This document shows, in pieces, positions 384-35,500 of a stretch of 64,000 bases of DNA. Position 1 is the stretch's first letter, and every line of letters starts with the position of its first letter. This DNA is from Antennarius striatus (Eukaryota > Chordata > Actinopteri > Lophiiformes > Antennariidae). The DNA lies in assembly GCF_040054535.1 (NCBI RefSeq), contig NC_090798.1, forward strand, positions 2,608,501 through 2,672,500. Reading direction: 5' to 3'. Position numbers and translations under genes: made by a program. The notes under the pieces were generated by a model. It did not search any database, was not told where the DNA came from, and worked only from the letters and a program-made list of their open reading frames with translations.

Positions 384-1401
384 AACAAACTGCAGGAACG
401 GTTCCATCTAACTTCTCAGGTATGCTGCTAGATGCCAGTTTCCATTCGATGACTCCGTCAACAGTCTAACGCTGCTTTTTCTTTATCTTCTTTCTTTATC
501 AGACTGGAACCGGTGGAGATTTATCCAGAACCAATCCGTTCTCGAAAGATTATTTGGTTCCTACCAAACCAGCCCCACCTCCCAGAGGAAACCTCTCCAG
601 AACCCAGCTGCCAAAAAGCACCCATCAGTTTAAAAGTCTCTTCCCAGCTGCTGATGGAGGTGATTCACCTCCTGCTGAACGCTCCAGGGAGGAGAACCTC
701 TTCGGTAAACCTCCCGTGAACGGTTTGGTCGACCCGTTTAAATCTCCTTCAAACGAGGAGGACGATCTGTTCCTGTCTCCACGGCCTCCGGCGGGACGGT
801 TCGACGCCGCCGTCAACACGCCTGAGTTGTTTCAAGCAGTTCCGACTAAAAGTGAGAACGCGTTCCATTCCAAAAACAACAAAGAGAGCCTTTTGGACGT
901 GTCCTATGAGAATCACCTGTTTAGTCCATCCAGAAAGACATCCGACTCGATCCCGAGCCCAGTTACGAGAGATTTATTCCCAGACTTCTCTAGTTTGGAT
1001 GACCCGCTTGCGACTACTCCTTCAAAGCATGACCTTCCCCCGTTTCCTTCAAATGGGACTCGAGATCTTGTCCGAACTCTTCCCTCAAGGAATACCACCC
1101 AGGATATGTTTAACGCCACCTCCAGCAATCCAGATCCCGGGTTCTCTAAATCCTCTCTCAACGGTACGTCGGAAATGAAGTCGGACAAGAATCCGAACTC
1201 CCAAGACCTCTTCGAGGTAACAACGTCGGAATCGCGGCCGACCTCCCGACCCCAGACGTCTTTCGCATCATTCGACGACGACGACGATGCAACCACATCC
1301 CAGGAACCCACCGGGGACGGTCTCCAACCCACGCCATTCACCCGGGCCAGGAATCTGTGTGTGTCGACGGGACAGTCTCCGTCTGATATGACCCACGTAG
1401 G

Positions 1402-4400: not shown

Positions 4401-7400
4401 TTTATGCAACAGTTTCTGTGCACCAGTGGTAGAAATCTTTTTGAAGTGATTGGCAACCACAAAGGAACAATCAGAAGTAGTGGTGCTGTCAGACGCCTCA
4501 TTGTGTTTCTGAATGGAGGGATAATAGTCGCTGAACACGCTCATTGATCATCAAACAGCTTGACAATGGAAGGCTGATTATTTGGTATTAATCTAAAGCC
4601 TGTGTGAACACTCATCTTTCAAATTCTCTTCCTGACACGGAAGCCGAAGTCGGTCTTTCAGTGAAACTGAAAGAGCTGGCACGATCATGGAATTTTAGAC
4701 TCGATCCGAAGTGAAGTTGTGATTTAAATTCTTTTAACAAATACATTTTTTTCTTACATTCTGACAGAAAAAATCCAAACAGAAAGGATTTTTCCCCAAA
4801 TCATTCAAATCTAAGAGCACCGGCGGACAGAGCGACCAGTTCGGATACAACATTCCAAATGAAGTTTCTAATGTATGTCTCCTGTTTTATATAATAAATA
4901 AATCAACCATTTCAGTTGATTTCTGCATTTTTTGATTTGATGATGTCGTATTTTAATTTTTTGCAGGATGTCTTTGCCGAGAACAACTTTGCTTCCGCCG
5001 CTGACTTCTCCATGCCGCCCGGAGAGACGTATGACGGTCAACACAACTTTGAAACTTCCAAGCCGGTACGTTTTGTGGCTCCAGTTGACTTTCCAGTGCT
5101 TGGTTTTAAAGTTAAACAATGCTCCAACATTTTATTCTTTTCAACAGAAGAAATCGTCTATACTTAAAACCTTGAAATTACCCAAGTTTAAGGTGAGTGT
5201 GTGTGTGTGAGTGTGGCCATGTCAGGTCCGATCAGGTGGGGACTCGCTGTCAGGTCAAAAGAGAATGACTTTTTTTTTTTTTTTTGTCACGCCAGAGAAA
5301 ATCCAGTCATTCAGGAGCTGCTCCCATGTCAGAAGCCGCCCAGGTGAGTTTTTCAGAACCGTGTTGGCGAAGCTAATAGTAGCACCAACCTTTAATAAAC
5401 TCACAAAACTTGAACAAGCGTTTATTGCATCACGAGATAAAGATCAGTTTGAATAAATGAGGCTTCGTTGGCGTCAGAAGAGACGAGCCTCCATTGGGGA
5501 GAGTTCCACACCGACCAGTCAAACCAGTTACAATGACTGGCAGAACTACCTGTGAAGCTTTCAACTTGATTTATTTACATAAACCATTAGAGGATCATAA
5601 GTCACGTCAGCACAGAACTTACTTTACATTTATCGAGGTGATGCACGTTTTTCTGAAGTTATTTAAAAAACCACTTCCTGTGATCGAATTTGAAAGACGG
5701 TGCAAAACAGGAAGACTTTGTTGGATATTTTAACTAAAAAACACTTTAAATCACGAAACACGAATATATATTTAATTTAACTAGATAAGGAAGTTAACTG
5801 ACTTTACTATATTTTTATTAATCTTAATGTTTTCTAACTCCTAATCTCTGGACTTTCTAAAAACATGCAAGAAGTTTATTTTTAAAATAATTATATATAT
5901 AATTATTGTTAAATTATACTTCTAATTATTATATAATATTAGTGTCAATTTCAAAGAGCAGTTTTGTTTCTGTTAACATCATTGTTTCCCTCTTCCTGAT
6001 GGGTCACATTCTTCTGACATGTGACTGAGCCGGTAAGGCTAGGTTAGCATGTACGCTAGCATCCAACTCGATGAACGCACTTTTAATATTTAGTTAAATA
6101 AATCCAAGTTAAATGAAATCACCGGATGATCTTTTTCTCCCCCATTCAGGCGGAGTGGCTTTCGGCTCAGATAGACGAACGAGGAGACGGAGACGAGGAA
6201 GACGGCGAGGAAGACGGGGTTGGTCTCTCTTTATCGTGATCACGGCGAATCAATAACGATCACTCGCCACCAGAAAGTGAAAACATGTCGTTTCATTTGT
6301 TTTTTTTCCAACAGGACACGGACAGTTTGATGGAATGGTGGTACACCGTGGAACGTGAGTAACAACCAGATCGAGTTAAACAAAGTCAGAATTCAGGTTC
6401 ATTTTAGATAACGCCGATTGTTTGGTTTGGGTTTCAGAGTGGGATGAGGTCCCGTCGGATGAGGAAGACAACGCCAAGACTGAAGATGAGAGGGAGTACG
6501 TATGGTTATATGAACTGAAACGCTCTGATCAGATTTGATCAGTTATAGCTGGATTTATAATCCTATTAAAAACTCTTTAAAATGAGAATAAATCAAGGGA
6601 TTACAGTATTTTCCGCACTTTAAGGCGCACCTAAAAGCCTTTAATTTTCTCAGTTTCTAATCCAATGTGCCTTAAATATGAAAGAAGTTTTCAAAATAGA
6701 CCATTCTTTGAAGATGAGTTCTCAGATGCGTTTATAATCCAGTGCGCTTTATATACGATTTCTTTTTTTTCATTCATTGACGGTGCGCCTTATAGTGCGG
6801 AAAATACTGTAGATTTGGGAGTCAGATGTAGCTGATGGGGCAATTAAAGTTTTCCCCAACTTTCTGAGTTTCACACGGGCGATTTAAAATAAAGTTAATA
6901 GGCGACAAGAACGATCGTTACGTATGATCGTTGGTATTTACTGCGTTATTTACAAGGTTGACTTGGTTTAACGGCTCCAGAATAATACAGGTGGGTGAAA
7001 CGGCGTTGCGTTTATTGTTCGTCCCTCAGCGTCGTAACCCCCGGCGCTCCTTCCTGACCGTCCCCCGCTGCGACTAACGTTCCTGCTCTCCAACAAAAAA
7101 ACCGCAGGTCCTTCCAGATATTGGCGGACAAGATCGTCCGCGGCCTCCGAGTCTTCAACAAGGTGTTCACGGAGCGCGCCGAGGTCCTCTGGCAGTACAT
7201 CATCATGCTCCACGCCATCGCAGACGACATCGAACACTTCCACCAGAAGGCCATCGTCGCCGGCATCACCGGGGGCACCACCACCGCCGTGGGCGGAGCC
7301 ACGGCCATCGCCGGTTTGGCTTTGGCTCCCTTCACCTTCGGTTTCTCGCTGATATTGACCGCCGTGGGCGTCGGCGTGGCGACGGCCGGCGGAATCACGT

Positions 7401-8057
7401 CGGCCTCCGCCGCCATCTCCGACAGCGTGAACAACATGCAGGACAGCAAGAAGGTAAGAAGACATTTCAACGAGAAGGAAAGTAAAGGTGGTTTCATCAA
7501 AGTTAGGAGTTTTCTGCTTGAGACGACCTTCAAAGACTTGAACTTTGACCCCATACCAGGTTGACACATGTGCCCTACCTTGTCCCTCATGTCTGAGCCT
7601 ACCAATGACCTCGTCAGGTTTTAACCAAAGATCTTCATCTCTCCTCCACAAGGTGGAGATAATCCTGCAGGAGTACGAAGCGCACCTCCTGGACATGGGG
7701 AAGATCCTCCACTTCGTCAATCACGCTTTGTACAAAATCCGCGGCCACCCTTTCCTCAGATGTGGGACCCAGCATTACTCGGAGGACTGGGAGGTCCGCC
7801 GGGCCGTCCAGATCATCAGCTTAGTGGACACGCCTGTGATGAGAGCGATGGACATCACGGACTCGGCCGTGGCCTCGGTCCAGGGACTCTTTAAAGGGAT
7901 GGATCAGTATTTCACCAAAGAATCCCGTGAGCTGAAGAAAGGCTGCAACCGGGAGGTGGTGGGTCGGATAAAGGGGGTGGCGAATGTCCTCAATAACGGG
8001 ATCATGGAGCTCAACAGCATCAGAGACGAACTACAGGAATCAACTGGAGGCATGTGA
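384..8057 (+). CDS. APOL-like protein with long endocytic-motif N-terminal region (gene A, 5' partial)
   Basis: Twenty-three exons join in frame to 1003 residues plus stop: 384-419, 503-1396, 1566-1694, 1810-1902, 2016-2078, 2244-2303, 2440-2475, 2550-2612, 2697-2744, 2839-2907, 3371-3442, 3523-3624, 3828-3887, 4210-4281, 4768-4872, 4967-5065, 5148-5192, 5296-5343, 6150-6218, 6315-6354, 6438-6495, 7108-7453, 7653-8057. The initiator is not visible, so the model is 5' partial. The 298-codon exon at 503 is disordered, with NPF, DPF and several DLF/NLF tripeptides, the classes bound by EH domains and AP-2. Proline-rich (KPPPKP-like), acidic and lysine-rich micro-exons follow. The last two exons encode an APOL-type domain: an amphipathic helix, a glycine/alanine-rich hydrophobic hairpin (about 7240-7430) and C-terminal helices. 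By family this is a membrane-associated, possibly membrane-inserting protein. The endocytic link is inferred from motifs only. It is probably a paralogue of gene B. Confidence 0.8.
1403..1441. repeat. (CA)n microsatellite after a gene A donor
   Basis: The CA run begins six bases after the proposed donor CAC|GTAGGT at 1396/1397. Reading through gives a spurious HTHTHT tail and then a stop at 1483. Confidence 0.95.
6602..6811. mobile_element. Palindromic MITE with TACAGTATTTTCCGCAC ends
   Basis: The element begins TACAGTATTTTCCGCAC and ends GTGCGGAAAATACTGTA, a near-perfect terminal inverted repeat. Internal 'aaggcgcacc'/'ggtgcgcctta' blocks are also inverted. It has no coding capacity. It lies in the intron between the WW-module exon and the APOL-domain exon of gene A. 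A diverged copy sits at 14148-14303 in gene B. Terminal TA is compatible with a TA target duplication, but the superfamily is not proven. Confidence 0.8.
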
Positions 8058-9719: not shown

Positions 9720-10420
9720 AGGTGAAAGTGATGTGTGTTTGGATGAATGCGCCCCTCCCCCCCGACCCCTCCCCGCCCCGCCCACTCGTGTTACTTTGTT
9801 ACATTGTTCTCGTTTAGCTGCGGTCAACCCCTGACATCAGATCGCACCGGTGCGCCTGTTATCACTAAACCAGCGCTCCCCAGTTCCGCCTCAGGTGTTC
9901 GTTAAACCAGTCTGACGCCTATTTGAACACACCGGGAAGTGAAAGACTCCACCGTGAGCCAACTCCACTTCTAAAACTCCCTCCATCTCCTGCCGTTTCC
10001 TTCTAACCGACTTTTTTTTTGTTTTTGTTTTATGTTCGTTTTGTTTTCCCCGTGTCGCAGCATCGAGGTAGGAACCCCGCTCGTTTTGTTGTTTCGCTGC
10101 TGCCGTTCGGGGCGGGCGGTCATCAAAACATTCCTCCGGAGCGGCACGAATGACCTCAATGACGCCGCCGGTTTGACTCGAATTGAACCGAACCGGACGC
10201 GCCGCCGCCGGTAAAGCTAATTCCCACGTCCGGACCGGTTTTACACCCGTTATCAGTTAGTTGCCGCCCGGCTGCGTTGCCACCATTTCTGCCTGGACGT
10301 GAAGTTTGTTCGCCCCGATTTCACTCAACTCTCGTCAGGCAGCGGCGTCACCCGACCAGAGAGCGCAAATCTCGCGAGAACTCAGAGCATCAGCGAGAGT
10401 TCGTCCATAACGAGGAGGAG
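9720..10420 (+). promoter_or_regulatory. CpG-rich promoter and candidate untranslated first exon of gene B
   Basis: The sequence becomes markedly GC- and CpG-rich compared with its AT-rich surroundings. It contains a GC-box-like cluster (ccccgccccgccc, about 9771-9783) and repeated CG dinucleotides between 10060 and 10380. A plausible donor CGAG|GTAGGA follows position 10067, which could end a non-coding first exon joined to the acceptor at 11036. No TATA box is evident. The transcription start cannot be fixed from sequence alone. Confidence 0.45.
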
Positions 10421-11037: not shown

Positions 11038-14000
11038 ATGAATGTGTTCAGGAGAGATAAAGGAGCAACTCCATCAGTCCCGCCTCGGCCCAGCAAAGAG
11101 GTACAGAGCGTGGCGTTAACGTTATTTTCTTTTTGTCTTATATGTTTTATTTTCCTGTTAACCGAAACTGTTATTCCTCTCCAGGAACTAGACCACCCCA
11201 TCACACACAGCATGAACACACAGGACGCAGCAACGGCCCCACAGGTTAAAATTTTTTAACTCTCACGTGCACAAACTTATTGTAGCCACGCTCCATTAGT
11301 TGTATTTTCTTACAGAAAAGCGAGTCCACGAGTGAGCTCAACCCAAAGGCGAAGGTGAGAACGCACTACGAGCCAATTCTTACAAAATCGGTTGTGTAAA
11401 AAATAAAAAAAAAGTCTGATCAGATATAAACAGTCGCAATGTGTGTTTTGTGTAAACATCAGAGGACGGGGGTGATGGGAGTGATGCAGAAGGTCAACCC
11501 GTTTAAATCCGCTTGGCAGGTAACAATAAGAAACGAGTCATAACGGTTTTGATCACTTAATGTGGACTCTAGTTTAAATAATTTTTATTCTCAGAACCCC
11601 CCTGCAGTCAGTAAAGCCCCCTCCTCAGAGTCACTGGAGCGGGGAACAGACTCCACGCAGGTGAGAACGCACATATCAGAACCAGAATCTGGATCTGGAC
11701 TCATAACCGCATCTTTGGGTTCCAGAACCCTGGTGGGCTGAAAGGGGTCATGCAGAAGGTGAACCCGTTCAAATCCACCTCCCAGGTAAACCCCAGCGCC
11801 CCAGAATGTCACCACGGTAACAGAAGGTTCTGTTTCAGTCGCTGCCACTCAGCTGTTTTTATCACATAGGCCTCCAAAGCGCCGTCAACCGAGTCCCTGG
11901 AACAGGGAAGTGCTTCAGATTCTAATCAGGTGGGTGGGAAATGATTTCCTCATTCAAAATCAATCTATCATAAAGAACAGTTCTGTTTCTGGGACACAAA
12001 TCAAAAACTGTTTCCTATTCCACACAAGTTTCTCACATAAGTCCATCTTTTCTGTTTAGAAACTTTGATCATTGGTATTTCTCCCTGTTTCCATGGTTAC
12101 AAGGTGATCAGATTCATTTTGATTGTGGGTTTTGTCTCAAATGAGGATTCAAATGAGTCTCAAAAACTGCTGACATGTCACAAAACTTCCCATTTCCTAA
12201 TTTTCGTGGACGGAATAAAGAATATTTGTTCAGTAGCGACAAATTTTGGCGTCATGAAAAGATTCAACGAATGAAAGGACGAGCGAGACTGACGAACAGA
12301 AGTTACAGAATTTGGAAAGCATTTGAAACACAAAAGTCAAAAACAGGAAGCAGATTAACTCGTACACCTGCCGTGACATAAATACTTAAATGCCCCCCCC
12401 CCCCAAAAAAAACAGCTTAAACATAGAGAAGTAATAAAAATATTCCTGCATGTCGACCATGATTGTGTTTCAGAACCCCGCCATGCTGAAAGGAGCCAGG
12501 CAGAAGGTGAACCCGTCCAAGTCGACCCCTCAGGTAACCAGGCCAGATTACAATCTACCGTAAATCCACATAAATCTAGTCATTTAAGGAAACAATATAT
12601 CAGATTTATTTTTTACTGCTGCATATTTTTCATGTAATTTTCATAGAGAAGTCAGAGAGATATATTGATGCTAAGAATACGAATTTATTACAGCCATGGA
12701 CAAGATAAGGTTGTTTTAATTTGACGTTCTGTGTTTAATATATAAGAACGATCCTCCAAACGATTCCGTGGCTCCACCTGAGACGGGAAGAGATCCACAA
12801 GGCAAACAGGTTGGCAAATCCTCCTCTGATGACCATCATCATCATCATCATCATCATCTGATCTCACAATGTCTGTATTATTTTAGAATCCAGGAATGAT
12901 TGCAGGAATGATGCAAAAAGTCAACCCCTTTAAATCCTCACAGCCAAAGGTAGCACATGTCCCAATAACGATGATATTAACTATCAGTTTGGAAGGAAAA
13001 AAACAATAATTTCAAGCACCATGCTGTTTATTATATTTATTTTTGTTGGCCTTACTTGTGTGTTTCCCAGGACACCCAGTCTCTGCAGAGTGACCTGTCC
13101 TCTAGCAGCGGGAGCTTGGCAGAAAATAACAACTTACCTGAGAAGCAGGTAGAACTTTGGGGAAAAAAAGTAGATCCTGAGTGTTAAGTAATATGAAATA
13201 TCTGGATCTTGTGTATTGGGATTATTGATTACACCAGGGACTATTCAGTGGCCTGGGGATTAAACTGAGGGCCCTGATCAGAGAGAGCAGCTTCTTTGTG
13301 TCTGTTATTATTCTTAATGCCACCACTAGATGGTGCTAGATCTGAGTATCTGTGACCTCTGCCAAGAATGTTGACCTGGTTGAGCTTGGATTGGTTGTTA
13401 GTTTGACAGTGTTCAATTGGATTCCATCTGGCATTAAATATGAGGCATTTTCCAATAGGAAAATTCAGGTTTTCTTGATTCAAAAATCTCATTTCTTCTA
13501 GCTGCAAAAACATAACAATGAAACTTCACTACCTTTGCTTTGCTACCTTTGGTTTAGTTGATTTCTTGTTCCACATCCTGAACATGATGTATATACACAG
13601 TTTTTGTGTGTGTTTATTCTGCCTCTGCTCCATCGATGTTGTGCATTCACGTGATTTCTGTGTTTGGTTCAGAACCCTGGGATGTTGAGAGGGATGATGC
13701 AGAAAGTAAACCCCTTTCGGTCTCAGACACAGGTACGGCGCCCCGTCTGAGGCCTCCCGGTCGTGTAGCTGCTTTTTTGTTGAATTCATTCGAATGTTGA
13801 ATGAGTGCGTTGTGTCGCTGTGATGCAGAAGCCAGAGGAGGAGCGTCAGACCGACCCGGTGTTTTCCACTGCACCTTCCTGCTTTGAGGCACAGGTGTGC
13901 TACTATTTGTTGGCGCTAGTGTGACTTCATGAATATTCTGGAATCTGTTTCCCATTTAATGAACTGTCTCTTTTTTTTATTTATTATTCAGGAACCCAAA

Positions 14001-17000
14001 ATCCACAGCGACCACTCCTCCAGCTCAGACAGTGTGGATGATAGTGAAATAATGAGACATGTAAGACAATTTATTTGCCCTTTTTTTTCATAGTTCCTAA
14101 AAATGAATTGGCACATTACTACTTTTGTCACATGCCTTAAATCAAAGTACAGTATTGTCCGCACCATAAGGCGTACCTAAAAGTCTTTAATTTTCTCATA
14201 AACTGACAGTGCGCCTAATAATCCAGTGCGCCTTATATATGAAAAAACATTTTAGAATACGTCTTTCATTGAAGGCGCGCCTTATAGTCCAGAAAATACT
14301 GTAAACATAGCGTGAAATCTGACTTGAGAATCATCTGGAAAGACTCGCAACAGTCAAATATTCTTATGGTACGTAATGTATATAATCTGTAAATTGAGTG
14401 CAGGATGTCTGATGCTTAACACCAGGTGTATTAATTAAATAGGACCTGTATTCTAACTCAATAACTCAGTAACTGCCTCCACCTTCCTGCAGTCTATTTG
14501 GTACGTGGACGCTGACGCCAGCAGCAAGGTGGAGGAACAACCAGCGGAGGCGCCGAAGAGACGTACCGGCGTATGTGAAGCAAAGATTTCCATCAAAATA
14601 CATTCACGTGAAATCAGTTTAACAGTGAAGCACTGAAAAGTTTTTAGAGTTCAATCCTGACGCTGAGCCGTTGTGAAGATGTAAGGGTGACGTTTGTTTC
14701 GTCTCCAGACCTTCAGAATAAGGAGGATTCTGCCCAGCGCGTTGTTTCGGTCTGGGACGAAGGTACCGCTGCACAGGAGTCACTTTACCACCCAAATGAG
14801 CTCCATTTATGTTTTTAAAGTCAAATGAAGGTGACTAATGTGAAATACCTGATTTTATTTATTACCTTCTTTTGTTCCCCAGGATGCAGCAGCAGCGGCA
14901 GCAGCTCCTGACCCTCCTCAGGTGAGTTTGTCTAACAGCTCTCAAACGTAGAGAATTTAATTTTAAACATTCCAAAAAAAAAGATTTTATATAGAAGAGG
15001 AACTAAAGTGAATGTTGCTGCTTTCTGGACAGATATTTGCTTATAAATTCTGAACCCACAACAAAATACAGGAAATAAATGCTGAATTTGAGGAGAAAAT
15101 GGCTCCAAGCTTGTGAACTGAACTGACAAATTTTCAAGTATGTTCAACGTAAAAATAAGTAGATTAAATAAAGTGCTGGTAAGTATCAACTGATTATTAA
15201 CTTGTAAAATCGACTGCTAATACTTTCAGGGATTAACTATTGATCGATCAATCATTACATTCTCTGGAAACTCCAGTAAATTCCAGAATGGAAAGATTTC
15301 ATTTACCGTTAGAAATAACCAGCCCAAACACTCCAAAAAAAAAAATCAATTTCAGAAGGTTTGAAAATTATTATTTGAAAATTATTATTATTATAGGGAC
15401 AAACCCTATTTTTGAGAAATGCAGGAGGGTGATTAACTTTGTGTCACGCGGGTGCATAATGACTGTAGTGGCATTGGGTTTTTGTGTAAATAAAGCTGCG
15501 TCAATAAAACAGACAGGCCAGTATTTTAATAAAAGGTTCGTGGTAAGATGATCGCTCAGAAACATATTTACTCTGTCAGCCTCAGTTTGGCTGCCTGGGG
15601 TTTTTTTTTTTTTTTTTTTCATTCTGAAAATAAGCCTCATTTTAATTTCTTGACCATCTGACAGGCTAAAGAACGTGAGCATAGAAATTCAGATTGTAGG
15701 CAGAATGTTAATGATTATATATAAAAAATAAGACATGACACACCTGTGTTTTCAGTGACAGAAATGTGTGATGTGCAAAATAAAACGTTTAAATGTTGTC
15801 TTTAGCGTTGAATTTTATATATGATCAACAGGGCAGAGTACTTGAATTAAAAATCCCAATTAATGTTAATATTAACATTTATTTCTTTTTTAAAATCCTG
15901 GTAAATAATCACTGTCCACCTTTTTTTGTTCAAGTTGTTTGCATCACAACTCAATACCGGTAGACCCTTTTAGTATTTTAGAATTCTCAACATTATAATC
16001 ATAATTACTCTAATTGGAAAATGTTCAATTGCTGTTTGCTGGAGGGAGAAAATATTACAATTTATATTTTTTTTATTCCCATGATAGCTCTGTTACAAAA
16101 GAAAAGACTCACTTTTGAAACAAGTAAAAACTTATCTTTTAACCAAACAACAATATATTAGTTTTTGTTTCCATGGCAACAGTGATGTTGACTTCAAAAT
16201 CAGTTTGAGTTCTTTTCCAGAGCAAAGGTGGAAACAATTTCTTTTACATGATGTGCTGTGATGGCGTAGCTGATTTAAATTTTATGTTAATTTTATGCAT
16301 TGTCATGGCAACAAATGTCCCTCGTGTGTCATATAAACAACCTAGTGGTGTGGAATTCTTCTGCTCTGCTACAGGAAGTGGTGGAGCTTCAGATGCTGCC
16401 ATTGGAGGACGTGCCGGTGCCCGGTGAGGGGGCAGAAGACCCGCTGGAGGTGAGGTTTATTTCAACAGATGGTGCTTTTTATGCTCCATTTAATGTACTA
16501 TTAATATGAAATGTTTGCTTCCAGGATGAGGACGGCCTTTTAGCCTGGTGGAGAACAGTAGACGGTACGGTTCTGCTTCACCTTCATAAAGTTCTGATGA
16601 TTTCTGATCCTATAGGAATTATTTTTTTCTCTTGCGTCTGATAGGCTGGCAGCAGTGGAATGAGTCGGTGCAGAATGATGAACCTGAAGAGTAAGATATA
16701 TTTTATCTTAAAATGTCAACCCTCTTGTCTGCATCTGGTTTCTACTCATTTCCACTTTCCTCCTCGCTTCCTTTTTCCAGCGTCATCGAAGACGCAGCCG
16801 ATCGCGTCTTCATGGCCGCCCGCCTCTTTGTCCGCTTCTTCAACCAATGCGGCGCCTCGCTCCAGAAACGCATCCTGGATTTGCTGGCCTTGGCTGACGC
16901 AGCCGACAACTTCCACAAGAAGACCGTCACGGCCAGCGTGGGCGGCGGCGTGGCCAGCGTGGCGGGGTCGATCACCACCATCACCGGACTCATCCTGGCG

Positions 17001-18272
17001 CCTTTCACGGCGGGAACGTCGCTCATCGTCACGGCGGTCGGTATCGGGATTGCCACGGCGGGCGGGGTGGCGTCGGCGTCGGCCAACATTACCGACACGG
17101 TGCATTCAAAGACGGACCGCAAGAAGGTGGAGAAGATGATCCAAGACTACGAAGACGAGATAAAGGACATCAGGGAGTGTCTGATCTTTTTGCAGGCGAG
17201 TGATGGACAGAAGTGTGTGTGAAGATGTACTGATCAATATGATTGTAGAGGTTTAGGGCTAAAATGTGGGTTTAAATCAACCTTTTTTTTTAAACATCGT
17301 GGAAAGCTTCGTTTTTAAAAAAAAAAATTAAAGTTGGAAAAAAAGCTGCATGACTTGAAACAGAAATCTAAATTAATATGAATATAAGTCTGGAATTTAT
17401 TCATTATTTCCCTTTGGAAAGTTTTGGAGTTAGTTTTTTGGAGTATTTCGGGTTCCATTGCTGCTTAAGAAAGTGAGGGAGAAAAAAAATTCATAATTCA
17501 TAAACTCCTGAATCAGGATCTACTCAGAAATTATTCTTTTAAAGAAGTTTAAATCTTTGGGACATATATATATATATATATAAATTATATTCCTGATCCC
17601 CAAACGAAACAAATAAAAAGAAAAACCAACTGAACAAACCCTTATAATAAGATCATTTCCCTTATAATAAGATTATTTCCCTTATAATAAGATTATTTCC
17701 CCTTATAATAAGATTATTTCCCTTGATAAGATTATTTCCCTTATTATAAGGTTATTTTCCTTATAAAATCTCCCTCTTCCTGACAGGAAGGGATGGACAT
17801 GCTTGAAGAATGGAACTTTGAGAAGTACGCCGAGAGCATCTCCAAGAAGCACCTCAACCAGAACGTCAAACATGTGATGAAGGAGGGCGGTCGTGCCGGG
17901 AAGGCGTTGGTGATCAACACGGAGACCCTGATCGGCACCATTCAGGTGCTGGGCGTGGCCGGAGGAGCTGCTAAAGCCGTCCAGGTGATGAGCATCACCA
18001 CGGGAGTGATGTCGGGACTCTTCCTGGCGCTCGACGTCTTTTTTCTGGCCAAAGATTCCATGGAACTCAAAAAAGGAGCAAAAACGGATTTTGCGGCTAA
18101 GATCCGGGAAGTTTGTAAAGACCTGCAGGACGGGTTGCTGGAACTGAACCGCATCAAGGAGGAACTCCAGAAAACCATGGACGGGGTGGAGGTGGAGGTA
18201 GACGAGGAGGAAGAGGACGTGGAGGTTTTGAAGTCTGAACTGAAGAAACTCATCGAGCTCGAAGAAGAATGA
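11038..18272 (+). CDS. APOL-like protein with five NPF-type exon repeats (gene B, complete)
   Basis: Twenty-two exons join in frame to 698 residues: 11038-11100, 11185-11244, 11316-11354, 11463-11519, 11595-11660, 11726-11785, 11870-11929, 12474-12533, 12747-12809, 12887-12949, 13071-13148, 13673-13732, 13829-13894, 13992-14060, 14493-14570, 14709-14762, 14883-14921, 16375-16449, 16525-16564, 16645-16690, 16781-17195, 17787-18272. The ATG lies one base inside its exon (acceptor CAG|G ATG), and the protein begins MNVFRRDKG. Exons at 11463, 11726, 12474, 12887 and 13673 repeat a G-x-MQKVNPFKS-like motif; the third reads NPS. They alternate with Ser/Glu-rich exons. The C-terminal half is an APOL-type domain with a Gly/Ala-rich hydrophobic hairpin (about 16930-17090) and an acidic tail. 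The last intron uses a GC donor (CAG|GCGAGT). NPF suggests EH-domain (endocytic recycling) partners, by inference. No signal peptide is seen. Confidence 0.85.
14148..14303. mobile_element. Second, diverged copy of the TACAGTATT MITE
   Basis: The element begins TACAGTATTGTCCGCAC and ends in AATACTGTA. It shares internal 'ctaaaag.ctttaattttctca' and 'gcgccttata' blocks with 6602-6811. It is about 156 bases, shorter than the first copy, and lies in an intron of gene B. Confidence 0.75.
17639..17766. repeat. 20-bp minisatellite in the last intron of gene B
   Basis: About six degenerate tandem copies of a 20-base unit (CCCTTATAATAAGATTATTT) are present. The array ends about 20 bases before the acceptor of the last exon and is preceded by a short (TA)n run near 17567-17583. 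It lies where the branch point and polypyrimidine tract are expected. Confidence 0.85.
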
Positions 18273-20216: not shown

Positions 20217-22477
20217 ATGAAACGAACATCAATAGGTAGGATAAAACACCATATATGATACATATTTATGTCTATTCATTAATTATTTCCTCTGCTCAGG
20301 ATATTATATGGTGCAGAAAATTGAGTAATGAGCTGCTGGACAAATAATATAAGTGGACGATTGCTTTTTAATATTATAATTTGAATAATAATAATACAAA
20401 CGTTATTCTTCTGTGATGTTGTCGGCTTCCTGCTCTCCACTGCTTCTAAATTTTACACGTAGCTGATCTGATACGATCTCGTAGATGAAATTTTCTGTTA
20501 TATTATACAAATACTTACTCTGCCTACTCTGCCTAGGAATGGACAACAAACTGGTCCTTGCTGTCCTGTTTGTGACGTTGTCTGGGTTATTTGTAAGCAC
20601 CACCTTTGGAATACAGAACTGCTCAGTTGTCAACGGGTCGATGGGATCCAATAACACCAGTGTAACCTGGCCAAATACGACCTGTCCAAATACGACCTTT
20701 CCAAATACCACCACGCGACATCCAACCTGGCGAAGTCCATTCCAGCCAAATACGACCTGCTCAAACATGACCTGTTCAAACATGACGTCATCAAATATGA
20801 CCTCTTCAAACATGACATCATCAAACATGACCTCTTCAAGCATGACGTCATCAAATACCACCTCTTCAAACATGACGTCATCAAATACGACCTCTTCAAA
20901 CATGACGTCATTGAATATGACCTCATCAAACATGTCATCATCGAATATGACCCAATCAAACATGACGTCTTCAAATGTGACCTCTTCAAACATGACATCG
21001 TCGAATATGACCTCATCAAACATGACATCATCAAATATGACCTCATCAAACATGACATCATCGAATATGACCTCTTCAAACATGACATCGTCAGATATGA
21101 CCTCGTCTAATACGCCCACGCCAAACACGACCATGACGCCAACAAGAACAACGTCAACAACTGTTCGGCCACTGACACCCAACTTCACAGTGGGAGCGCT
21201 GACCGTGAGTAATTCAGTAACTAACGGAAAGATCAGAAAGATTTATTGTTGGTAATAATAATAATGTGATCCAGTAACTTAGTGATTATTTGTTCCCTGG
21301 TTTTAATGACCCCAGCATTTGTTTACCACATGTTCTGTTTCTGCTATCCCTTGCAGGTCCCTATTGATAACACGATGTGTGGAGACACTCAGCTCTGTGG
21401 GTCGGAGCCTCCTGATTGCAGTCCTGCAACTTCAGACACGTGTAGCTTTATTGGCGTTCAGCAGCTGGAAGGTGGCGACACCTTCCTATTCGCCATCGCA
21501 GGACAACCGGACGACGCCCTCGGCCTCGTCATAGCGACTCCGGGACAAAATGTTTGTCAAGTTCTGACGTTTAGTTATTATTCACTAATTCACTAATTAC
21601 ATGTAGTTTCTACAGTTTCTTTGGGGATAAATCAACCGATTGTTCTTTTTTTTTTTACCACAGGGGGATTTGGCCTTTTTTTGCGTCTTTGTAGACGATG
21701 AGTTTATGTTCGTCACTGGTGTGGTGCTAAATAACAAAGTCACAATACAAGAGGTAAGATGTGCTGAGGAAGGATATATCTAGTAGAGATTAGTAGTAAT
21801 GTAGTAATCATTTATTCATAAACACAAATAATGTCAATTCAATACATATTAATCTGTCTGCTTTCCAGCTGAATGCCAACAATGTGATGGCCACATCCGG
21901 AGAAAACGGTATCCAGTGTCAGTTTGCTGCCTCTGTCCCACCGGCTCCAGCTAGAACCACAGCCGTAATGTTGTCGTTGGCCAGTGCAACTTTTGATAGC
22001 GGTAAGATATCGAAAGATAATCTAAAGAAACTCGCTGAGAGTTTCGAGGATTATCGCAGAAGACTGGTTTGGATTTTCCTACATGCTGAAAATGCATGGG
22101 TGATGTCATTTTGTGCTTATTCATCAGAAACTGGTTCCGTTGGAGGATTAACCACCCTGGTGCAGAGTCCCCCGGTGGACATTACAAATCCTACAGCCAC
22201 GTTTGCAAATGTGGCTGTTAATCCCAACACTACCCCCAGCACTACCCCCAGCACTACCCCCAACACTCCCTCCACCACGACCTCCAACTCTTCCTCCACA
22301 CCTTCTGGTTCCACCACATTCAAGCTGTCCCTGATGCCAGGTAAGCAAACAAAGACAATGATGCAGAAAAAAATAACCAAAAAGAGCCAGAAATGCACGT
22401 CTGTCTAACATCTAACGTATTTCTCTCCTCCAGTTCTACTGTTTGGTATGATCCCTCTGATTCTGACCAGACCATAA
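20217..22477 (+). CDS. Secreted/GPI-type DOMON-like (FRRS1-related) protein with N-glycan sequon array
   Basis: Seven exons give 453 residues: 20217-20235, 20537-21204, 21357-21551, 21664-21753, 21869-22001, 22128-22340, 22434-22477. Exon 1 (MKRTSI) joins in frame to MDNKLVLAVLFVTLSG, a good signal-peptide core; a start at 20539 is the alternative. A Thr/Ser/Asn-rich segment follows with about 30 N-x-S/T sequons, mostly as five-residue NMTSS units (20750-21110). Next is a cysteine-bearing domain (CGDTQLCGSEPPDC onward) resembling the DOMON region of fish ferric-chelate reductase 1-like proteins. A TP-rich stalk and a short hydrophobic end (VLLFGMIPLILTRP) suggest GPI attachment. No cytochrome b561 helices are present, so reductase activity is not expected. 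Its role is unknown; a heavily glycosylated surface protein is the best description. Confidence 0.75.
20750..21110 (+). repeat. Coding 15-bp VNTR (NMTSS units)
   Basis: Some 22-24 tandem 15-base units (consensus like atgacctcttcaaac, with atgacatcatcaaac variants) each encode N-M-T-S-S or a close variant, including NTT, NVT, NMS, SMT and DMT. The unit length is a multiple of three, so the reverse strand also stays open by chance. Confidence 0.9.
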
Positions 22478-24346: not shown

Positions 24347-27300
24347 ATGAAAGGGAGTCAATACAATTGGATCTCCAAGGGTGAGTCACAGGATCTCTGA
24401 ATATTTGTTACTGTGTTTTCGCATTTAAATGGAATGTTCTACCTTTTTTTTTTTTAACCATTTCTCTTCAATAAGGTATTTGCCTCATGCTGACATTTGA
24501 AGCACTGAGAGGTAAACTGCATTTTTTAAATTTAACGTCTGCAGTTTTATTGCAGTTTTCTGAGTTTTCACTCTGGTTATTTTGGTTTGACAACAAGGTG
24601 AAAGAATGATTAACTTGGCGCTGCACAAACCAGCTGTCCAGTCTTCAGAACTTGCCAGCCAAAGTGCTCATTATGCAGTCAATGGGTTTAGACGCGCAGA
24701 CGATATTGGAGAGCGCTGTGCCATAACTATACAAGAATCTGATCCCTGGTTGAGGGTTGACCTGGGGAAGGTTGAAATGATCAGTAGTGTGATGATCACC
24801 AATGCAGATGGTACTATGTTGGGTGGTGCTGAAATCTGGATTGGAAACTCAGAAACGACCAATAACCAAACCGACAGAAGGTGAATCTGCTTGATGCAGA
24901 CATATTTCATAGATCTACCATTATAACATGAAAAGTTTTTCCTGTTCACATTTGTGCTGCTCTACTCCTTTCCTCAAACAGATGTGGTGTCATCTCTGGC
25001 ATTCCAAGCCTCCAGACATATTACTTTCCATGTACGGCAGCGAAGGGACGCTACGTTACTGTGCGTTACCCAGGAAGTCACAAGATCCTCGGTCTCTGCG
25101 AGGTCGAAGTGTACGAAGAAGATAAATGTGGTAATGATAGATTTCGATTATATTCCAGCAAAAGTCAGGTGAGGACCTAAATCCAGAGTCAGTCGGGAAG
25201 GAATTCAAATTTTGAAATATAATCCAAAAGTGAGCAAAACCACAGAAAGCAAAACGAAAAAGACACCAAAGCTAAAAATCGAGAAAATCAAAACACTGGG
25301 AGAGGGAAGAGACAACAGGAAAAAACAGACTCTACAACTCATTCATTCATTTTCTTCAATACATCAAAGAATAACAAGAACAAAAAGAGTCTTAGGAGTT
25401 CTTCTATCACAAGGGAAATGAATGTGAAAAACGTCCTGAGGCCTGACAGACCACTGATGCAGCCGTGTGGTCTTTAGCTCATTGCTAATCGTACCCAACT
25501 CAATCCTGCCTGGAATGTTTGATCGATTTGTAGCTACATTGATGGTTATTTTCATTATTTAATGAACTAAAGATTATTTTGAAAACAATTTGATATAAAA
25601 ATGACAAAAACCTAAAAAAAGAAAAGCATTTCTCCTGTCTAACTGTGTGGCCGACAATCCAAAGGACTTTTTCCCAATAATTGAATATTCTCTGAGCTCT
25701 TGATAATTTCGACTCACCACATGAAACTGATGAATTCAGCATTCTGTTCATTTCTGTTTCAAGTACACCCTTTAGAAAATGTGGCTCTGAAAGGCGAAGC
25801 CACCCAGTCGATGGCACTCGACTCGTCAGCCTTCAATGCAATTGATGGGAGACGAAACCCAATCTTCGCTCAAGGCTCCTGCACCCACTCAACTGACGGG
25901 GACATCGACCCTTGGTGGAGGGTGGACCTGAAGAGAACCTTCACTGTCATAAATATAAAAATCACCAACAGAGGAGACTGCTGTGCTGAGAAACTGGATG
26001 GAGCTGAGATCCACATTGGAGACTCCTTGGAGAACAACGGAAACAACAACAGAAGGTACCAACAAAGAAGTAAAAAATCGGTGCATTGAATCTTTATGGT
26101 TTGCTGTTTCAGTCGAAACTTGATATGCAAACAAAATATATTTTAAAATGCTGTACAATGTTCAAGGAAGACCATGTAGAAATGTTCAAAATGCACCAAA
26201 TCCCACAAGGTAACCTAGTCTTCCTCTCTTGCTGCCCTCCGCTGTCAGGTGTGCCACCATTTCCCACATCGGAGCTGGTAAAACCCACACTTACCACTGT
26301 GACGGGGGCAACTTGTCGGGTCGCTACGTGAACGTGATCCTCCATGGAGCGGAGAAGCTCCTCATTCTTTGTGAAGTGGAGGTGTATGCGGCTCCAGAAG
26401 GTACAACCGACCAACTGTGACTCATGGAGAGTCACCGGTCTGCTATTGATCCATCCCGGATTTGTTTTGTCTTCACAGCAGAGAAACCTCTTCAAAACGT
26501 GGCCTTAAACAAAAACACAAGAGGATCTGAACCTACAGGAAATCTCAACGGTCCGGTCAGTGGATGCCTGAACACCGCGCTTGATTCCAGATGCTGTAGC
26601 GACACTTTGCAAAGATCAAGTCCCTGGTATAGAGTTGACATGTCAAGTGAGCATCTCATTACTGCTGTTAGCATCATCAACAGGCAAGACTGCTGTGTTG
26701 AAAGACTGTCTGGGACAGAGATCTGGGTTGAAAGTTCTACGAAATCCGAACGGTGAGACATAATTTCTGAGTCAATAAACACCTTTGATTTTTTATGTAT
26801 TATTTAAATTTAAATGTGTTATTTAAATGTGTTATTTTAATTACCAATACCGCTAAGCTAATACGTCACCTACATTTCAACTTCAACTTTTATTGATGTA
26901 GCACTTAATCACATCTGAAGATATTTCAAAGCGCTTAACAGATAGAAAGCCAACAATGCCCTCCAGAGCATGCATAAGCGACGGTGGCGGGGGTAAAAAC
27001 TCCCTCATTGAGGAAGAAACTCCGGGCAGCACCCAGGCTCTGGAGGGCGGTCATCCACCTTGACCTGTTGGTTTGGCAGTATGGTGCAGACAAAGAGTGT
27101 GATTTAACAGTAATAATAAATTCTAGAAGCATAGAAAGATAATGAAAGAGAAGTGACAGAAACTCCAGACTATCTCCCTTTAACTGGAGAGACAGGGAAA
27201 AATACCGTCAGCAGCTTAGGCCTACAGCAGCATTTAGTGGAGTGTCTGTTATTTCTAATTGTAGACTCTATCAAAGAGGAGGATTTTTAGTCTACCCTTA

Positions 27301-28744
27301 AATAAGCTAAGGGTGTCCTCCCCTTGGACTGAGGCTGGGAGATCGTTCCAGAGTAAAGTTGCCAGATAGCTAAAGCTTCTGCCTCCTGTTCTACTCTTAA
27401 AAACCCGACGGTTCACCAGAAATCCTGCATCCTCGGATTGAAGGGCCCTGGGAGGGTGATACACTTAAATGAGATCTTCAATGTAAGACGGAGCCTTACA
27501 GTGGACAGCTTTATACGTAACCACGAGGAGTTTGAATTGTACCTACATTGTCATTTCTTACAACCAATTTCCCCACCTTGTCGTTCTTTGTCAATTAGAT
27601 GTGGAACTGTCACATGGATGCAAACCACATCGGTCTACACTTTCAGGTGTACAAGCCTGCATGCTACAACTGTCACGATACAAAACACGGGATCATCAAA
27701 GTACTTGACTTTATGCGGAGTGGAGGTGTACGGCGTGCCAGGTACGGTCCTGATTAGCAGCATGACCTCCTTAAAAAAGTTGTGCAACAGTTTGATATGC
27801 AAGACAATCCAACAGAGGCCTAATGGTTACTTCCTCATCAGTGTCCAAATTTGAGCCTACTCCTGCTGGACCTACTGATTCTCCTGCTGCTCCTCCTGCT
27901 GGACCCATCACTAATCCTCCCCCTGCACCTCCCACCACGAGCCTCACGCTGAACGACAAGACGGTGACCATCGTTGGAGACAGACTTTGCTGGTCCGATG
28001 CTCTGTTGTACTGTCGGCGCCACTTTGGGGACCTTCTGACCCTACACAGTGAAGAGGAGCAGAGGCAGGTGGAGCAGATGCTGAGGGGTAGTCCTTTCCC
28101 CCTCACCGACCTCCTCTGGATAGGACTCCGCAGGTAACGCCCAAATTAACACCAAGATATAAGAAAGAAGGTGAAAACAGGCAGCCTAACCTGTTTTTTT
28201 TCCATGCAGTCAAAAAAGCAAGGGATTTGAATTTTGCAAATGTGCATAGAAGAGTCTTGTCTTGGAGTCAAATGTTGTACGTTCTTGTATTCTACTCATT
28301 TGTATCGCCCTGCATGTGTAGTGTTGCATGGTCTCATCTTCAACACCTGATGTCGGTTGCTTCAGGTTGTTAATCAGAAGCATATCATTCAATCTGTTAA
28401 CACATTTGTTTTGCAGATCCGTGATGAGCGCTACCTGGTTCTGGATGTCTGGCGCATCCATGCAATTCACCAACTGGCCCCATGAATCTGCACCCGGCTT
28501 GCACCCTAACCCTAACCTCTGTGGAGGCTTGGTGAACGGAGAGCAGCAGCATTGGGAGATCCAGCATTGTCAGGAGCACCTCAACTTCATCTGCCAGTCA
28601 GGTAGGGTTCACGTTCTACATCCTGCATTCGAACAGATTTTACTTTATTACAATAGTTTCACCGGCTCTTTCTTCCCCGCAGAGTTTGGAGGGCAAAGAA
28701 GAGTGTATTTCTACAGCAGCCTGGATGACAGCAGTCGGACTTAA
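24347..28744 (+). CDS. Three-domain F-type lectin fused to a C-type lectin domain, copy 1
   Basis: Eleven exons give 633 residues: 24347-24380, 24476-24511, 24598-24880, 24982-25130, 25764-26055, 26249-26400, 26479-26752, 27599-27741, 27842-28133, 28417-28601, 28683-28744. A weak signal peptide ([19 protein letters not shown]) precedes three fucolectin (FTP) domains, each from two exons split at the same phase-2 position. FTP2 keeps the eel-fucolectin-type fucose motif (CTH, then RGDCCAEK). FTP3 keeps RQDCCVER but lacks the CTH. FTP1 has lost the RxDCC motif ([13 protein letters not shown]). A proline-rich linker leads to a C-type lectin-like domain with WIGL and conserved cysteines, but no EPN/QPD or WND calcium motif. 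It is probably a secreted fucose-binding recognition protein; the ligand is inferred. Confidence 0.88.
26870..27545. repeat. Interspersed repeat in the FTP3 intron, copy 1
   Basis: This is a fish-type interspersed sequence starting near 'cttttattgatgtagcactt' and running to 'gaggagtttgaattgtacct'. It includes text such as 'ggctgggagatcgttccag' and 'attgaagggccctgg'. An equivalent copy lies at 34876-35552 in the duplicate, so it was present before the duplication. Small ORFs inside it are non-genic. Its class is undetermined. Confidence 0.65.
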
Positions 28745-32553: not shown

Positions 32554-35500
32554 ATGAAAAGGAGTCAATACAATTGGATGTTCAAGGGTGAGCCACAGGA
32601 TCTCTGAATATTTGTAATTGTGTTTTCACATTTAAATGGAATGTTTTACCAATTTTTTTTAACCATTTCTCTTCGATAAGGTATTTGCCTCATGCTGACA
32701 TTTGAAGCACTGAGAGGTAAACTGCATTTTTTAAATTTAACGTCTGCAGTTTTATTGCAGTTTTCTGAGTTTTCACCCTGGTTATTTTGGTTTGACAACA
32801 AGGTGAAAGAATGATTAACTTGGCGCTGCACAAACCAGCTGTCCAGTCTTCACAACTTGTCAGTCCTGATCATGCAGTCGATGGGTTTAGACGCGCAGAC
32901 GATATTGGTCATTCCTGTGCCATAACTACACAAGAATCTGATCCCTGGTGGAGGGTTGACCTGGGGAAGGTTGAAACAATCAGTAGTGTGATGATCACCA
33001 GTGAACACAGTTATTGGTTGGATGGTGCTGAAATCTGGATTGGAAACTCAGAAACGATCAATGACCAAACCGACAGAAGGTGAATCCGCTTGATGCAGAC
33101 ATATTTCATAGATCTACCATTATAACATGAAAAGTTTTTCCTGTTCACATTTGTGCTGCTCTACTCCTTTCCTCAAACAGATGTGGTGTCATCTCTGGCA
33201 TTCCAAGCCTCCAGACAATTTACTTTCCATGTACGGCAGCGAAGGGACGCTACGTCACTGTGCGTCTCCTAAAAGGGGAAAAGATCCTCGGTCTCTGCGA
33301 GGTCGAGGTGTATGAAGAAGATGAATGTGGTAATGATCGATTTCAATTATATTCCAGCAAAAGTCAGGTGAGGACCTAAATCCAGAGTCAGGGAGGAAAG
33401 AATTCATATTTTGAAATATAATCCAAAAGTCCAGAGATTACGGGGCCTGACAGACCACTGATGCAGCCGTGTGGTCTTTAGCTCATTGCTAATCGTACCC
33501 AACTCAATCCTGCCTGGAATGTTTGATCGATCTGTAGCTACAATGATGGTTATTTTCATTATTTAATGAACTAAAGATTATTTTGAAAATAATTTGATAT
33601 AAAAACGACCAAAACGTTAAAGAAAAAAAGCCTTCCTCTTGTCTAACTGTGGCCGACAATCCAAAGGACTTTATGCCAATGATTGAAAATTCCCTGAGCT
33701 CTTGATAATTTCGACTCACCACATGAAACTGATGAATTCAGCATTCTGTTCATTTCTGTTTCAAGTATACCCTTTAGAAAATGTGGCTCTGAAAGGCGAA
33801 GCCACCCAGTCGATGGCACTCGACTCGTCAGCCTTCAATGCAATTGATGGGAGACGAAACCCAATCTTCGCTCAAGGCTCCTGCACCCACTCAACTGATG
33901 GGGACATCGACCCTTGGTGGAGGGTGGACCTGAAGAGAACCTTCACTGTCATAAATATAAAAATCACCAACAGAGGAGACTGCTGTGCTGAGAAACTGGA
34001 TGGAGCTGAGATCCACATTGGAGACTCCTTGGAGAACAACGGAAACAACAACAAAAGGTACCAATAAAGAAGTAAAAAATCGGTGCATTGAATCTTTATG
34101 GGTTAAGTTTTCAGGCAAAATTTAATAAGCAAACAAGTATATTTTTAAAATGCTGTACAATGTTCAAGAAAGGAACATGTACAGTACAAATGTTCAAAAT
34201 GCTCCAAATCCCACAAGGTAACCTAGTCTTCCTCTCTTGCTGCCCTCTGCTGTCAGGTGTGCCACCATTTCCTACATCAGAGCCGGTAAAACCCACACTT
34301 ACCACTGTGACGGGGGCAACTTGTCGGGTCGCTACGTGAACGTGATCCTCCATGGAGTGGGGAAGGTCCTCATGCTTTGTGAAGTGGAGGTGTATGCGGC
34401 TCCAGGAGGTACAACCGACCAACTGTGACTCATGGAGAGTCACCGGTCTGCTATTGATCCATCCCGGATTTGTTTTGTCTTCACAGCAGAGAAACCTCTT
34501 CAAAACGTGGCCTTAAACAAAAACACAAGAGGATCTGAACCTACAGTAAATCTCAACGGTCCGGTCAGTGGATGCCTGAACACCGCGCTTGATTCCGGAT
34601 GCTGTAGCGACACTTTGCAAAGCTTAAGTCCCTGGTATAGAGTTGACATGTCAAGTGAGCATCTCATTACTGCTGTGAGCATCATCAACAGGCAAGACTG
34701 CTGTGTTGAAAGACTGTCTGGGACAGAGATCTGGGTTGAAAGTTCTACGAAATCCGAACGGTGAGACATGATTTCTGAGTCAATAAACACCTTCTATATT
34801 TTATGTATTATTTAAATTTAAATGTGTTATTTAAATGTGTTATTTTAATTACCAATACCGCTAAGCTAATACGTCACCTACATTTCAACTTCAACTTTTA
34901 TTTATGTAGCACTTAATCACATCTGAAGACATTTCAAAGCGCTTAACAGATAGAAAGCCAACAATGCCCTCCAGAGCATGCATAAGCGATGGTGGCGGGG
35001 GAAAAACTCCCTCATTGAGGAAGAAACTCCCAGCAGCACCCAGGCTCTGGAGGGCAGTCATCCACCTTGACCTGTTGGTTTGGCAGTATGGTGCAGACAA
35101 AGAGTGTGATTTAACAGTAATAATAAATTCTAGAAGCATAGAAAGATAATGAAAGAGAAGTGACAGAAACTCCAGACTATCTCCCTTTAACTGGAGAGAC
35201 AGGGAAAAATACTGTCAGCAGCTTAGGCCTACAGCAGCATTTAGTGGAGTGTCTGTTATTTCTAATTGTAGACTCTATCAAAGAGGAGGATTTTTAGTCT
35301 ACCCTTAAATAAGCTAAGGGTGTCCTCCCCTTGGACTGAGGCTGGGAGATCGTTCCAGAGTAAAGTTGCCAGATAGCTAAAGCTTCTGCCTCCTGTTCTA
35401 CTCTTAAAAACCCGACGGTTCACCAGAAATCCTGCATCCTCGGATTGAAGGGCCCTGGGAGGGTGATACACTTAAATGAGATCTTCAATGTAAGATGGAG

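Follow-up and report, generated by a model that had tools for sequence, protein, structure and literature searches.

The 64,000-nucleotide stretch of the Antennarius striatus genome studied here (the window; C23:2608501-2672500, in a searched genome of 548 Mb and 42 contigs) contains two adjoining APOL genes. The second of these, gene 2 (C23-B), carries an array of short exons with repeated NPF motifs N-terminal to its APOL membrane domain. The predicted model, which was assembled by eye from splice sites, comprises 22 coding exons at 11038-18272 on the forward strand and forms one open frame of 698 residues. The lengths of the first 18 coding exons are all multiples of 3, their phase is 0 and together they encode 370 residues. 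Coding exon 1 (11038..11100; MNVFRRDKGATPSVPPRPSKE), whose start codon lies one base past an AG acceptor, and the phase-0 exons 2 (11185..11244) and 3 (11316..11354) precede the array. An acidic/Ser exon of phase 0 (13992..14060; EPKIHSDHSSSSDSVDDSEIMRH) and the linker exons at 14493-14570, 14709-14762, 14883-14921, 16375-16449, 16525-16564 and 16645-16690, which include LLAWW, connect the array to the two APOL domain exons (16781..17195 and, with the stop codon, 17787..18272). All donors are GT except a GC at 17196 (CAG/GCGAGT) at the end of the first APOL exon, inside the domain, where the paralogue C18-B has GT. The gene had been called APOL-like from the sequence alone, and the Pfam search agrees: ApoL (PF05461) matches residues 408-658 with E 2e-36 and 126.4 bits against a cut-off of 25.9, spanning profile positions 46-297 of 298 (the query was a typed protein copy with E in place of D at one junction). 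The individual APOL exons also passed the PF05461 cut-off in the genome profile scan. The C-terminal end of the protein is short and acidic. With the exon arrays as queries, Pfam gave only matches below the cut-off and no family above it, and a PDB sequence search with one repeat gave 0 matches.

The array is built of five repeat exons, each followed by a short exon, all on the forward strand: R1 (11463..11519; RTGVMGVMQKVNPFKSAWQ) and S1 (11595..11660, 66 bases; NPPAVSKAPSSESLERGTDSTQ), R2 (11726..11785; NPGGLKGVMQKVNPFKSTSQ) and S2 (11870..11929, 60 bases; ASKAPSTESLEQGSASDSNQ), R3 (12474..12533; NPAMLKGARQKVNPSKSTPQ) and S3 (12747..12809, 63 bases; NDPPNDSVAPPETGRDPQGKQ), R4 (12887..12949; NPGMIAGMMQKVNPFKSSQPK) and S4 (13071..13148, 78 bases; DTQSLQSDLSSSSGSLAENNNLPEKQ), and R5 (13673..13732; NPGMLRGMMQKVNPFRSQTQ) and S5 (13829..13894, 66 bases; KPEEERQTDPVFSTAPSCFEAQ). 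The five repeat exons proposed by the sequence-only reading were all recovered, bordered in every case by AG upstream and GT downstream, of a length divisible by 3 and in phase 0, and NPF is kept in four of them, the third having NPS. The common pattern that was claimed for all five had to be loosened. The leading NP is absent from R1, which begins with RT, and the MQKVNP block is absent from the partly decayed R3, where RQK replaces MQK (ARQKVNPSKS); the other four copies have the respective element. Exon-pair duplication was likewise found to hold in part. Both members match between pairs 1 and 2 (SKAPSSESLERG / SKAPSTESLEQG for the homologous Ser/Glu exons S1 and S2, with proportions of synonymous and nonsynonymous differences, pS and pN, of 0.71 and 0.15), and since S1 and S2 are clearly related, these pairs most likely arose as pairs. 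In pairs 3-5, the NPF exon alone is recognisable as a repeat.

In the predicted protein, NPF occurs at residues 66, 108, 189 and 236 and NPS at 148, so that the motifs are separated by 42, 40, 41 and 47 residues (40-47) and several NPF motifs lie in one chain, as in a multivalent NPF ligand. A chance origin was ruled out, since the 370 residues encoded by exons 1-18 contain four NPF motifs where 0.05 would be expected, and none of 20000 composition shuffles reached four. The exact MQKVNPF-coding DNA was found at a minimum of four sites in the genome and, among the matches listed, all lie in C23-B, on which ground we rejected the idea that the repeats are pieces of a transposon. Sites with one mismatch elsewhere in the genome numbered at least 5, against at least 2 for a reversed control pattern.

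The core GxMQKVNPFKS (11 codons, five copies) showed pS of 0.822 and pN of 0.098 over ten pairwise comparisons, which are non-independent and in which synonymous divergence is past correction. Within QKVNP, all 24 of the pairwise differences counted were synonymous. The repeat-flank count in the window used four of the five copies, R1 being left out as it has no NP start. In a neutral star simulation, seven or more invariant columns were obtained in none of 20000 runs at per-site divergences of 0.20, 0.25 and 0.30, whereas seven such columns appeared in 0.015% of runs at 0.15 and in 1.7% at 0.10; the mean simulated pS was at most 0.48 at all five settings, under the observed 0.82. The core is under strong purifying selection. 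Because synonymous sites are saturated, pN is low and the invariant columns exceed those of the neutral simulation, the five copies are old and their core is maintained. Recent or conversion-homogenised copies were rejected in view of the synonymous saturation, and the ungapped match between repeats takes in only about 16 bases of the preceding intron and 4 of those following the exon. These data also bear on an alternative in which exon-pair duplication enlarged a flexible, phosphorylatable spacer and the motifs of the array have no dedicated receptor. Such a spacer would suit the window Ser exons beyond S1 and S2, which are not recognisably alike, and the undetectable similarity between the arrays of C23-B and the paralogue C18-B, whose APOL domains are 76% identical. 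It does not suit an 11-residue core held by strong purifying selection at synonymous saturation, and we regard it as quite unlikely.

EH domains are candidate readers of the motif; in general they for the most part favour NPF peptides, and the flanks and the number of motifs set the affinity (PMC3570524). The EH domains of the EHD type favour an NPF that has acidic residues behind it (PMC13282721, PMC4398442). Of the two NPF motifs of MICAL-L1, the first (NPFEEEEED), on which EHD1 binding depends, is the only one with an acidic flank (PMC13282721). In C23-B, the residue directly after NPF is K or R in all four copies (NPFKS three times, NPFRS once) and never acidic. The sequence-only reading had named both the EHD and the EPS15/intersectin families. 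The gene, the array and its conserved NPF core were borne out, but EHD1 was rejected as preferred partner for want of the acidic flank, and the basic residues favour the EPS15/intersectin type over the EHD type. EPS15 bound triple-NPF peptides and did not substantially bind a single NPF peptide (PMC12808100), a behaviour that would match the spaced array of C23-B. The motifs might also be read by a non-EH NPF receptor such as POLE2, which recognises NPF with a salt bridge to the Arg preceding the motif in DONSON (PMC12808100); in the C23-B repeats, a K stands two residues before N. However, there is no evident reason why an APOL membrane protein should meet the replication polymerase, multivalency points to EPS15-type readers, and this explanation seems very improbable to us.

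Our preferred reading, put forward tentatively and at a little less than an even chance, is that the array of C23-B is a multivalent ligand tail for EH domains of the EPS15/intersectin/REPS type on an APOL effector. The 370 N-terminal residues, encoded by 18 symmetric phase-0 mini-exons, would present four NPF(K/R)S motifs and one NPS, and the tail, which we infer to be disordered, would be captured through these spaced motifs by EPS15/intersectin/REPS EH domains. The capture would recruit the membrane domain of the APOL protein to early endocytic or clathrin-coated membranes, an outcome for which the arguments on either side seem about balanced; any immune role would be a further presumption. 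Because all array exons are of 0-0 phase, skipping them by alternative splicing could alter the valency and leave the frame intact. The endocytic-ligand reading is favoured because the paralogues too carry NPF/DPF/DLF-type motifs.

The genome scan with PF05461 gave 11 matches at E <=0.01, which we read as nine loci: two in the window, two on C18, and three clustered and two more on C16. Four of the genes, C23-A, C23-B, C18-A and C18-B, appear from their predicted exons to form an array- or motif-bearing set over two chromosomes. The origin of the two APOL clusters may lie in the teleost whole-genome duplication. In a comparison that covered the APOL paralogues other than the three C16 cluster proteins, C18-B was the closest to C23-B, with an APOL domain 76% identical over 271 residues. 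Before this domain, at least 23 mini-exons were curated in C18-B, and 23 of 23 have AG..GT borders and phase 0, a count that is not independent evidence because the exons were chosen partly by their splice sites. They mostly alternate between 11 exons of the EKGGIFSGMFKKSPK type, whose basic unit GGIFSGMFKKSPK keeps hydrophobics and KK, and 12 Ser/acidic exons. A long Lys/Glu-rich C-terminal tail follows the APOL domain of C18-B (L017 9178-10000) and runs beyond the end of that stretch. In C18-A, 27 exons were curated, of which 26 have AG..GT borders, and three of them contain NPF (SKFAEAMTKLNPFRYGNK, TRLKKSKGPNPFLQRTLAK and TKVKKPKRFNPFMPRVK); in all three, a K or R lies no more than three residues from the motif. 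A profile of the repeat type made from C18-B alone (R18) found five copies in C18-A (E 6e-7 to 5e-3), and that of the Ser type (S18) found three C18-A exons (E 9e-5 to 0.026). A protein query with the C18 unit against the whole genome gave at least 8 matches at E <=10, and 8 of 8 lie in the C18 APOL cluster. The C18 repeat cores, counted on the 10 of 17 repeat-type exons of the two genes that fit one ungapped 13-codon frame, showed pS 0.73 and pN 0.23, and are thus constrained, although not as tightly as the core of the window repeats. Scanned with a regular expression, the sequences flanking the five C16 loci (one strand at the two single loci) revealed no similar array; all that matched was an overlapping pair of unconvincing exons near C16:1309685 and, in the C16 cluster, an exon that is unrelated.

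The C23-B and C18-B arrays resemble each other in position, phase and size and, more loosely, in charge, yet their direct homology was rejected as a claim, since the profile similarity is not significant: hhalign gave a probability of 0.52%, and 20 of 200 column shuffles were as good (five window pairs, eight C18-B pairs). The best matches of the window profile (R23) outside the array were weak (0.062 at window 33071-33088, 0.26 in L024 and 1.2 for AMTKLNPFR in C18-A), and the best match of S18 within the window array, the S4 exon, had E 16. The charge pattern would also suit another function. The repeat could be a basic/hydrophobic patch for membrane or phosphoinositide contact, MARCKS-like in spirit, that makes many weak lipid contacts, NPF being incidental or secondary. 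The window repeat exons carry a net charge of +3 to +4 and the window Ser exons -1 to -4; the C18-B repeats range from -1 to +5 (nine of 11 positive, one 0 and one -1), and the Ser exons from -1 to -5 (11 of 11 negative). The conserved block of the window takes in QKV, and the C18 units retain hydrophobics and KK without NPF, but they may say little about the C23-B unit because the array profile comparison is not significant. Moreover, the N and P that are invariant in the window repeats have no obvious use in a lipid patch. Tests of helical amphipathicity against shuffles placed none of the five window repeats (median P 0.31) and two of the 11 C18-B repeats (median P 0.13) below P 0.05. An amphipathic helix in the window repeats was rejected, as the hydrophobic moment did not exceed that of composition-matched shuffles. 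We consider the lipid patch unlikely, though the most serious of the rivals to an EH ligand.

Gene 1 (C23-A) has a large phase-0 exon of 298 residues (503..1396, forward strand) and APOL-domain exons at 7109-7453 and 7653-8057 (7109..8057, forward strand); by eye, its first exons seem to lie upstream of the window (L003). The large exon contains NPF, DPF, NLF, DLF three times, ELF and DMF. The pattern [DEN][LMPI]F, picked after inspection of the exon as one of five patterns tried, was seen eight times against 0.81 expected and reached eight in none of 20000 shuffles. Three of the five patterns gave P <=0.0005. The EH2 and EH3 domains of EPS15 bind, besides NPF, Phe motifs such as DLF weakly (PMC12370899). 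The gene 1 motifs support the view that APOL genes of the cluster carry what look like endocytic-type linear motifs. Gene order alone makes C18-A the counterpart of gene 1, because in BLAST C18-A scored slightly higher with C23-B (230 bits) than with C23-A (206 bits). By eye, a motif L(M/L)xWW(x)(T/S)V is present just before the APOL domain in all four genes (window 16525-16564, window 6315-6354, L017 7582-7621 and L018 9016-9054). WW is found among class II EH-binding peptides, a class of unclear relevance (PMC3570524).

Several observations weigh against an EH ligand as the full explanation of the C23-B array. The invariant core positions are G, Q, K, V, N, P and S, with F in four of the five copies; the conserved block thus exceeds NPF, and selection is not centred on NPF alone because the invariant set omits F. 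The C18-B array has 0 NPF in its 23 curated exons despite the 76% identity of the APOL domains. In the gene 1 exon, NPF by itself is not significant (1 against 0.15 expected, P 0.14), and [ND]PF has borderline significance (2 against 0.37, P 0.050). NPF is also short and common: the disordered parts of human proteins contain 509 copies of it (PMC12808100). The case against EHD is itself weakened because EHD2 has a basic-flanked loop, KPFRKLNPF, for which binding to the EH domain of an adjacent EHD2 molecule has been proposed (PMC4398442); KLNPFRYGN of C18-A is rather similar to this loop. With a conserved block longer than NPF and a 76%-identical paralogue that keeps an exon-pair array without it, NPF may not be the whole function of the array.

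How APOLs are directed to the correct membrane (phagosome, endosome, pathogen surface or mitochondrion) is, to our knowledge, unsettled. What the predicted exons add is that mini-exon arrays span a four-gene, two-chromosome APOL set with differing motifs. It is possible, although doubtful, that the APOL cluster, perhaps across ray-finned fish, uses linear-motif tails that are swappable and splice-tunable and consist of mini-exons of 0-0 phase, with an EPS15-type EH ligand in one paralogue, a KKSPK-type array in its 76%-identical sister and a DLF/DPF/NPF exon in the neighbour, and that a nearly unchanged core is addressed in this way to different endocytic or vacuolar membranes. If true, the EH/clathrin adaptor network would thereby be linked to a family of innate-immune membrane effectors. 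Like APOL domains with replaced tails would make membrane addressing directly testable through tail swaps between the 76%-identical paralogues.

Other features of the window were noted. Upstream of gene 2, GGAAGTGAAA, which we take to be an IRF/Ets-type site, lies at 9935-9944; the window has 20 such sites against a mean of 12.2 in shuffles, and 4 of 100 shuffles reached at least 20, so that a lone site is not meaningful. Elements of the 'ccgcactataaggcgcacc' type, by eye resembling miniature inverted-repeat transposable elements, recur in introns (window 6607-6810 and 14155-14305; L018 7920-8080). A low-complexity, mucin-like frame with NMTSS repeats, rich in Thr, Ser and Asn, lies at 20485-21252, and its Pentapeptide match (3.2e-9) is probably a repeat artefact. 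Exons of the F5/8 type C (fucolectin-like) domain are found at 24591-24884 and 25685-26086 (PF22633, 5e-8 and 2.5e-16), and C-type lectin exons at 27796-28134 and 28322-28741 (PF00059, 9.6e-5 and 8.2e-4, the second under the cut-off). The near-identical stretches 26109-28744 and 34111-36744, about 8 kb apart, are a tandem duplication of a lectin-gene region; in a comparison of the open reading frames 27357-27854 and 35364-35861, 4 of 498 bases and 3 of 166 codons were different.

The ApoL domain is common to C23-B and the known APOL family (PF05461; human APOL1-6 and mouse APOLs), to which C23-B adds the N-terminal mini-exon array with repeated motifs. We know of no such array in mammalian APOLs. 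APOLs are lipid-interacting, membrane-remodelling proteins linked to immunity, and mouse APOL7C and human APOL3 permeabilise phagosomes (PMC13177371). The main text of that article contains 0 occurrences of NPF and 0 of fish, and the isoform-specific insertions described there are of another kind. The open-access literature search found no text combining 'apolipoprotein L' with 'NPF motif' and 0 matches for 'FKKSPK'; 'apolipoprotein L', 'NPF', 'EH domain' and 'Eps15' came together in the one paper found as unrelated names in a gene list, and APOL3 with EHD1 led nowhere, to three papers with a single mention of APOL3 each.

Among multi-NPF EH ligands, epsin also carries several motifs. Synaptojanin 1 (SYNJ1), with three NPF (PMC12808100), resembles C23-B in having several of them in one chain. 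In contrast to these ligands, the C23-B copies are NPF(K/R)S within a longer QKVNP block, each in an exon of its own, and are joined to an APOL domain. The EHD-type ligands MICAL-L1, Rabenosyn-5 and Rab11-FIP2 share the NPF core, but theirs is followed by acidic residues (PMC13282721) and that of C23-B by K or R. Similar in architecture is the array of C18-B, which occupies the same place before a 76%-identical APOL domain and also consists of two kinds of mostly alternating phase-0 mini-exons, although its motif is another one (GGIFSGMFKKSPK), it lacks NPF and its profile similarity to the C23-B array is not significant.

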